Assembly (NCBI RefSeq): GCF_030291135.1
Contig: NZ_CP127409.1
Location: forward strand, 2,852,001-2,916,000
Direction of reading: 5' to 3'
Length of the DNA stretch: 64,000 nucleotides
Source: Rhodanobacter thiooxydans
GTDB lineage: Bacteria > Pseudomonadota > Gammaproteobacteria > Xanthomonadales > Rhodanobacteraceae
This document shows, piece after piece, positions 22,592 to 23,768 of this stretch. Numbering within the stretch: position 1 is the first letter of the stretch; every line of letters starts with the position of its first letter. The notes below the pieces were generated by a model, which did not search any database, was not told the origin of the DNA, and saw only the letters and a program-made list of their open reading frames with translations. Made by a program: the position numbers and the translations under genes.

Positions 22592-23125
22592 TTACTTTTT
22601 CGCTTTGGCCTTCGCGGTCTTGGTGGCCTTCACCACCTTGGCCGGTGCAGCTTTCTTGGCGGCAGCCTTCTTCGGCGCAGCCTTCTTCGCAACCTTCTTT
22701 ACAGCAGCTTTCTTGGCGGCTGCCGGCTTCTTGGCAGCTTTCTTGGCGGCCGGCTTCTTGGCGGCAGCCTTCTTGGCGGCCGGCTTCTTGGCAACCGGCT
22801 TCTTGGCGGCGGCCTTCTTCACGGCGGGTTTCTTGGCGGCGGCCTTCTTGGCGGCCGGTTTCTTTGCAGCGGATTTCTTGGCAGTGGCCATGGTTCGTCT
22901 CAGCTCCTCATCAGTTGGCAGTGGTTGCCCAGTAAAAGCGTGCAGGAACGCCTCGACCAACAAGTCGCTGTTGGTAGCGTGCCGAAGATTGTTCACTTGA
23001 CGGTGGGTGCGCAAATCAGAAAGCCGCCGCAGCACATGCAGCGGAATCGAGACAGTGATCTTGCGTACTGCATTGGCCTTTTCACCGTGCTCGACATACG
23101 GCTTGATGAATTTCGTTGTCGCCAT
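22592..23125 (-). CDS. metJ: MetJ-type methionine repressor fused to a histone-H1-like Lys/Ala-rich tail
   Basis: A 177-residue protein. Residues 4-76 are a MetJ ribbon-helix-helix domain. The DNA-contacting strand RKITVSIP includes K22 and T24, equivalent to K23 and T25 of E. coli MetJ, and [10 protein letters not shown] and [11 protein letters not shown] match MetJ closely. At about residue 77, where E. coli MetJ continues into its last helices (total about 104), the sequence turns into about 100 residues of KKPAAKKAA-type repeats like bacterial H1/AlgP tails. I chose the ATG at 23125 because GGGGAA lies at a good distance. An internal ATG at 22891 could yield the tail alone. Two met-box-like octamers lie in its promoter. 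Expected role: repression of methionine genes with S-adenosylmethionine as corepressor; the tail probably adds non-specific DNA binding. Confidence 0.88.
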
Positions 23126-23270
23126 AAAACGCATTCCCCGTGATCTGTTGCGAAAGCTATCCCCGAAGATTTCTGCTGTCAATTGATTTCAATCATCAAA
23201 TCAACCCGCCTCACCCCCTCCCAAACCGGCCCGCAGCCTGCCTCGACAAGGCTTTCGGGGCAATGATCCT

Positions 23271-23299
23271 ATTTATCAAATGGACGTCCAGACATCCAA
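23271..23299 (-). promoter_or_regulatory. Probable metJ promoter with two met-box-like octamers in its spacer
   Basis: On the minus strand TTGGAT (23299-23294) and GATAAA (23277-23272) are separated by 16 bases. Two abutting octamers (plus strand GGACGTCC at 23282-23289 and AGACATCC at 23290-23297) each match the met-box consensus AGACGTCT at 6 of 8 positions. They fill the region from the -35 into the spacer. An A/T-rich tract (23300-23333) lies upstream and could act as an UP element. The leader would be about 140 bases. Confidence 0.55.
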
Positions 23300-23768
23300 A
23301 GTTTTTTTACAAAAAAATGTAATAAACGCCCATAACCCTTGGTACACAACGGTTTCGAGGCATGAGCCAAACAAAGACGCGTAAAATGGTCAACGCATGG
23401 CATCACTCGCGCGCGACACATTCCTGGCCACCGGGCGACTCCCGGCAGATGAACAGAACACGACTGAAACCCGTCAAACCGGTATCCCGGCACAGGCAAA
23501 AAATATCCGGCACCCTGCCCTAGGCGCACCCCGGGAACGGCGCGAACGGGATGTGCGGCACTCCGGCGCTGCTCGCTGATGGCGACGCCGCGAGGTCGAT
23601 TCGCGCGCGATGGCATCGTCGATGACATGCATGCGCGGCGCGATCATCGGGATGATTTCATCGGAGGAGAGGAGCTCGCCTGCGGACCCACGGTTTCGCT
23701 CGATGGCACACACGGAGAATGAAGCGGCCGCATGCATGGCGCGATGACACGTCCACCCCGGAAACAGT
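23300..23768. other. Gene-free stretch between metJ promoter and gcvH
   Basis: About 470 bases without a supportable gene. Only short, compositionally unremarkable open frames are present (for example 23474-23803 minus and 23397-23579 plus), without family motifs or good ribosome sites. The left end (23300-23333) is A/T-rich. I see no riboswitch or tRNA-like fold. Confidence 0.5.

Follow-up and report, generated by a model that had tools for sequence, protein, structure and literature searches.

Two abutting octamers upstream of metJ very probably form a conserved operator for the MetJ repressor, the decisive evidence being that relatives conserve the pair at the same position. The octamers were found in the window, by which we mean the whole 64,000-nucleotide stretch of DNA that was analysed (Table 1). 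Rechecking the sequence bore out the original prediction that the two octamers abut on the plus strand, that each matches AGACGTCT at 6 of 8 positions, and that both sit between TTGGAT (23299-23294) and GATAAA (23277-23272) on the minus strand, two hexamers spaced 16 bases apart. Read on the metJ strand, the pair is GGATGTCT.GGACGTCC. The metJ site therefore carries two abutting 8-bp boxes resembling AGACGTCT, the arrangement by which we define operators of this class.

Table 1 Features at and upstream of metJ in the window.
Feature	Position	Strand	Description
Tandem met-box operator	23282-23297		GGACGTCC (23282-23289) and AGACATCC (23290-23297); predicted from sequence and conservation; about -172 of metJ
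metJ	22592-23125	minus	177 aa; MetJ ribbon-helix-helix domain (residues 5-89) and Lys/Ala-rich, H1/HC2-like C-terminal tail
Probable metJ core promoter	23154-23182	minus	TTGACA (23182-23177), 17 bp, TAGCTT (23159-23154); hexamers conserved
Inverted repeat TTGATTT-N8-AAATCAA	23183-23204		Abuts the metJ -35; left half degenerate in some genera
Inverted repeat CGAAACCGTTG...CAAGGGTTATG	23338-23365	minus	Upstream of the boxes; 11 same-genus loci aligned
20-nt element AGTCGTGTTCTGTTCATCTG	23446-23465	minus	-321 to -340 of metJ

Taken alone, the loose pattern AGACGTCTNGACGTCY (up to 3 mismatches) is weak evidence, since it matches 4 times in the window against 2.6 expected. The metJ site lies one mismatch from RGACGTCYRGACGTCY, and the 3.52-Mb genome has 23 positions with at most one mismatch, so the chance of finding one in a given 300 bp is about 0.002. 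We compared 31 representative metJ loci, covering 26 genera of the family (with three loci of the window's own genus and two of genus g18), Dyella choica and one MAG. In 29 of them a pair scoring at least 12/16 lies 166-183 bp before the start codon, the D. choica pair scores 12/16, and the position of the boxes is conserved in 25 of the 26 genera. Within the genus, all 11 loci have a pair scoring 14-16/16 at -170 to -173, and in the genus alignment the DNA flanking the boxes on both sides is far less conserved than the boxes themselves. The boxes have decayed in both representatives of the Dyella-like g18 (11/16 and 9/16), which still keep metJ. As a positive control, boxes were found before metJ in all 12 named gammaproteobacterial loci, at 97-326 bp from the start, so being this far from the start codon is not in itself unusual. 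Among 12 outgroup loci whose MetJ lacks a tail, three (L151, L152 and L154, all of family f12) have a clear pair in the upstream 650 bp or so, and nine are without one.

One part of the original prediction is not supported, namely that the boxes lie inside the metJ promoter. TTGGAT matches TTGACA at 3 of 6 positions, a promoter scan gave no promoter-like pair there, and TTGGAT/GATAAA, which is not conserved among the representative loci, was rejected as the metJ promoter. All 31 representative loci carry a TTGACA-17-TAGCTT/TAATTT/TAGTTT element, and the block TTGATTT-N8-AAATCAA TTGACA-N17-TAGCTT is even better conserved than the boxes. We take TTGACA-17-TAGCTT as the probable metJ core promoter; the inverted repeat abutting it is possibly the operator of another regulator. 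The boxes and this promoter do not overlap. The promoter lies downstream, with 110-125 bp from box start to -35 start (mean 114.8 ± 3.3 bp, n = 29), and the metJ boxes would therefore constitute a distal operator, from which autorepression of metJ appears likely.

The same spacing bears on an alternative, that the boxes regulate a separate upstream start (P1) or a non-coding transcript, MetJ repressing P1 only while the proximal promoter stays constant. Such a start would fit the 110-125 bp between the boxes and the proximal promoter, the inverted repeat and conserved 20-nt element further upstream, and the AT-rich -10-like sequence (GATAAT, GAAAAT or GATAAA) that follows the boxes in several genera. 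However, several genera lack the -10-like sequence, the scan found no consensus -35/-10 pair at the boxes, and the leader in the window has no unusual RNA structure. We regard this arrangement as possible, if doubtful. A structured metJ leader RNA was rejected on the same folding result (z = 0.37), and an Rfam search of the window gave no match.

Two further elements lie upstream of the boxes. The inverted repeat at 23338-23365 shows paired changes across same-genus genomes and has no clear T run. The 20-nt element matches a degenerate pattern without mismatch in 9 of the 11 loci from the genus and in three of genus g22. When a regulon-wide use of the element was considered, only one near copy came up elsewhere in the genome (at 1479209).

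The metJ gene is single copy in the complete 3.52-Mb genome, and its product lies above the curated cut-offs for the MetJ domain (Pfam MetJ, 2.8e-35 and 120.6 bits, cut-off 25) and for the NCBIfam MetJ equivalog (126.7 bits, cut-off 110). The closest named relative among those found is D. choica (70% identity), a member of the family Rhodanobacteraceae. From about residue 80 onward the protein consists of a Lys/Ala repeat, and over 54 family proteins the tail is about 37% Lys, 36% Ala and 0.1% acidic. The tail scores below the family cut-off of Pfam HC2 (9.7e-9, 36.0 bits against 40) and below that of the H1-like NCBIfam model NF038053 (29 against 80). The equivalents of K23 and T25, which we take to be DNA contacts in E. 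coli MetJ, are unchanged in all 54 proteins. Among the residues presumably related to SAM (E59, H63, A64, F65, L70, R42 and E39), the equivalents of the first five are invariant and those of R42 and E39 are not: E39 is replaced by L in 28 of the 54 proteins and R42 by H, E, Y or S in 29. Many members thus differ from E. coli MetJ at two positions that we assume lie near its SAM site, and their response to SAM could differ. Of 147 sampled genomes of the family, 146 have MetJ, as do 53 of 200 genomes of an order-level sample. In the other two MetJ-bearing families of the order, the ORF at most loci spans about 80-106 aa (143 at one) and has no long tail.

A genome scan for tandem boxes upstream of met genes, suggested in the original prediction, found them before metX-metB, a btuB-like gene, metE and the gene for a bifunctional aspartokinase (lysAC). 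In the window's genome, 21 sites differ from two AGACGTCT boxes at no more than 3 positions, compared to 4 for the reversed control. We compared the orthologous promoters in up to 30 relatives from 25 genera, taking p values from base shuffles and counting three loci with cut, mis-registered flanks (L078, L113 and L165) as misses. Boxes are present at 29 of 30 metX promoters (the one miss is L078, where a site exists 106 bp upstream), at 16 of 22 btuB promoters (the closest 22 of 30 loci returned), at 12 of 30 lysAC promoters and at 7 of 17 metE promoters, with p ≤ 0.02 in each case. At metX and btuB the boxes adjoin a TTGAC -35, and at metE they take up the space between the hexamers of TTGACT-17-TAATTT. 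By sequence, the boxes of these three genes thus overlap or abut a promoter; those of metJ would do so only if a further start site existed there, its conserved promoter being some 115 bp downstream. A SAM riboswitch is located between the boxes and metX (L002 1349-1464) and a cobalamin riboswitch between the boxes and metE (L012 1291-1501). At both genes, a riboswitch downstream of predicted MetJ boxes amounts to two predicted layers of control.

Box pairs also occur in other settings. In L028, L295 and L250 they lie between two genes that we read from the sequence as siroheme-synthase-like and as CysB-like (LysR), a hint that MetJ may control sulfate assimilation. In L007 (1501-1524), three abutting boxes are flanked by a terminator-like hairpin and by the 3' end of a lipoprotein gene, away from any promoter position.

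Perfect RGACGTCYRGACGTCY pairs extend beyond promoters. We counted 167 in 35 genomes with tailed MetJ (at least one in 28 of the 35), compared to 0 for the control, and 0 in 18 MetJ-negative genomes; among genomes with tail-less MetJ, five of family f12 have 10 and eight have 0. Nine perfect pairs are present in the window's genome, six well inside genes, two over called starts and one intergenic. When codons in 373 kb of coding DNA were randomised among their synonyms, about 0.017 perfect pairs were expected per genome; Markov models of the background, with MetJ-negative sequence sampled from 0.37 Mb in 8 genomes, gave about 0.001 per Mb. Given these expectations and the absence of perfect pairs from the 18 MetJ-negative genomes, codon usage (LDV codons) was rejected as the cause of the in-gene boxes. 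Among 56 sites in relatives and the window's genome, which are the best or hand-picked matches and not all 167, 42 were called inside genes and 14 outside; the ORF caller is crude, and where an "inside" call begins at the box, as some do, the site may belong to a promoter. Perfect tandem boxes near 1501 of L006, L010, L013 and L016 lie inside nnr, edd, UbiH-like and short-chain dehydrogenase genes, respectively. The in-gene position recurs across genera in nnr (at GRLDV; L006, L241, L232, L227, L247, L297 and L299) and in edd (L010, L242, L246, L304 and L306), both gene names being read from the sequence. Since it was the boxes that led to these loci, the recurrence is partly ascertained. We read the in-gene boxes as being under selection, and their excess at the codon level offers a testable case for used sites within coding DNA.

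These in-gene sites raise the question of what the tail does. MetJ with its histone-like tail might read boxes both at met promoters and within genes, where synonymous codons would be held, and thereby link the level of SAM both to methionine genes and to how the chromosome is organised; we consider this unlikely. We ascribe no role to the tail at the in-gene boxes because the tail-less f12 genomes share the excess. A further proposal, likewise unlikely, is that tailed MetJ is mainly a nucleoid protein, the boxes at metJ and in genes serving as nucleation sites and met repression being secondary. The Lys/Ala-rich, almost acid-free tail and the six in-gene pairs, set against the 0.017 expected, would suit such a protein, but the best-conserved sites are at met promoters, in classical positions, and perfect boxes also occur in the f12 genomes, whose MetJ has no tail.

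The reading of the boxes as MetJ operators is further supported by their distribution. In a comparison of 43 genomes, the 25 with tailed MetJ had 106 sites versus 9 for the reversed control, and the 18 MetJ-negative relatives from the order had 1 versus 22. Boxes are conserved upstream of met genes where MetJ is present. Because the sites are in excess with tailed MetJ and not without MetJ, the tailed protein very probably still recognises met boxes of the classical type. This agrees with the original prediction that the fused protein does so, as MetJ is single copy and tailed and boxes precede metX, btuB, metE and lysAC here and in relatives. Another regulator could in principle read the metJ boxes, and the available text of Leyn et al. 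2014 (PMC4239095) reports SamR as a methionine regulator of Xanthomonadales; however, the SamR motif described there is a 24-bp palindrome with ATC-N10-GAT and not tandem octamers, and the boxes follow the presence of MetJ, making this very improbable. Chance octamers in a genome of 67% GC are scarcely credible: the loose pattern in the window alone is not above expectation, but the position is conserved across genera and the genome-wide excess is found only where MetJ is present.

In E. coli, SAM-loaded MetJ dimers sit side by side on 8-bp boxes. By analogy, the octamers are probably the operator of the adjacent tailed MetJ, whose SAM-loaded dimers would occupy the two boxes side by side. At high SAM, MetJ would lower metJ transcription, and the same protein would repress metX-metB, btuB, metE and lysAC from similar boxes. 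The sequence of the sites, their conservation, their co-occurrence with MetJ and the conserved MetJ domain are observed. Since the boxes lie about 115 bp upstream of the metJ promoter, repression at metJ itself would require an upstream start site, looping, or spreading aided by the basic tail. We infer MetJ binding, its dependence on SAM, the repression and any role of the tail.

The metJ site is thus very probably a real operator of a known kind, for a variant MetJ. Our searches of open-licence papers found no description of tailed MetJ or its operators. The available text of Leyn et al. 2014 (PMC4239095) describes MetJ in six gammaproteobacterial groups and none, with SamR instead, in four Xanthomonadales genomes; that of a 2025 paper (PMC12146267) describes MetJ, a "putative repressor", rising in Rhodanobacter R12 as methionine enzymes fall with nitrate. 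Our data would extend the MetJ regulon to Rhodanobacteraceae (the family being assigned by the named relative), in an order for which the four-genome survey of 2014 listed none, and the present family lies outside the six groups as described there. Bearing a long basic tail, this repressor most likely still uses its classical operator, and its control would be stacked on riboswitches at the same genes.

Compared with E. coli MetJ (PDB 1cma, 1mj2), the protein is alignable over residues 5-89 (E = 1.2e-30) with invariant K23 and T25 equivalents. By contrast, the E39 and R42 positions are variable in the family, and the C-terminal part is replaced by the Lys/Ala tail, with a median of 100 residues following the residue-78 equivalent. 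The tail shares its Lys/Ala/Pro repeat composition with histone H1-like HC2 and Burkholderia H1-like proteins, but unlike them it falls below both curated cut-offs and is fused to a DNA-binding repressor. As in the operators of Enterobacterales, Vibrionales and other gammaproteobacteria in the available text of PMC4239095, the sites are tandem 8-bp boxes near AGACGTCT, and metJ, btuB, metE and transsulfuration genes are common targets. Unlike gammaproteobacterial met boxes, those described here drift to GGACGTCC. Unlike known MetJ systems, metJ is not beside metB in the window, and a SAM riboswitch is additionally present at metX-metB and a cobalamin riboswitch at metE.
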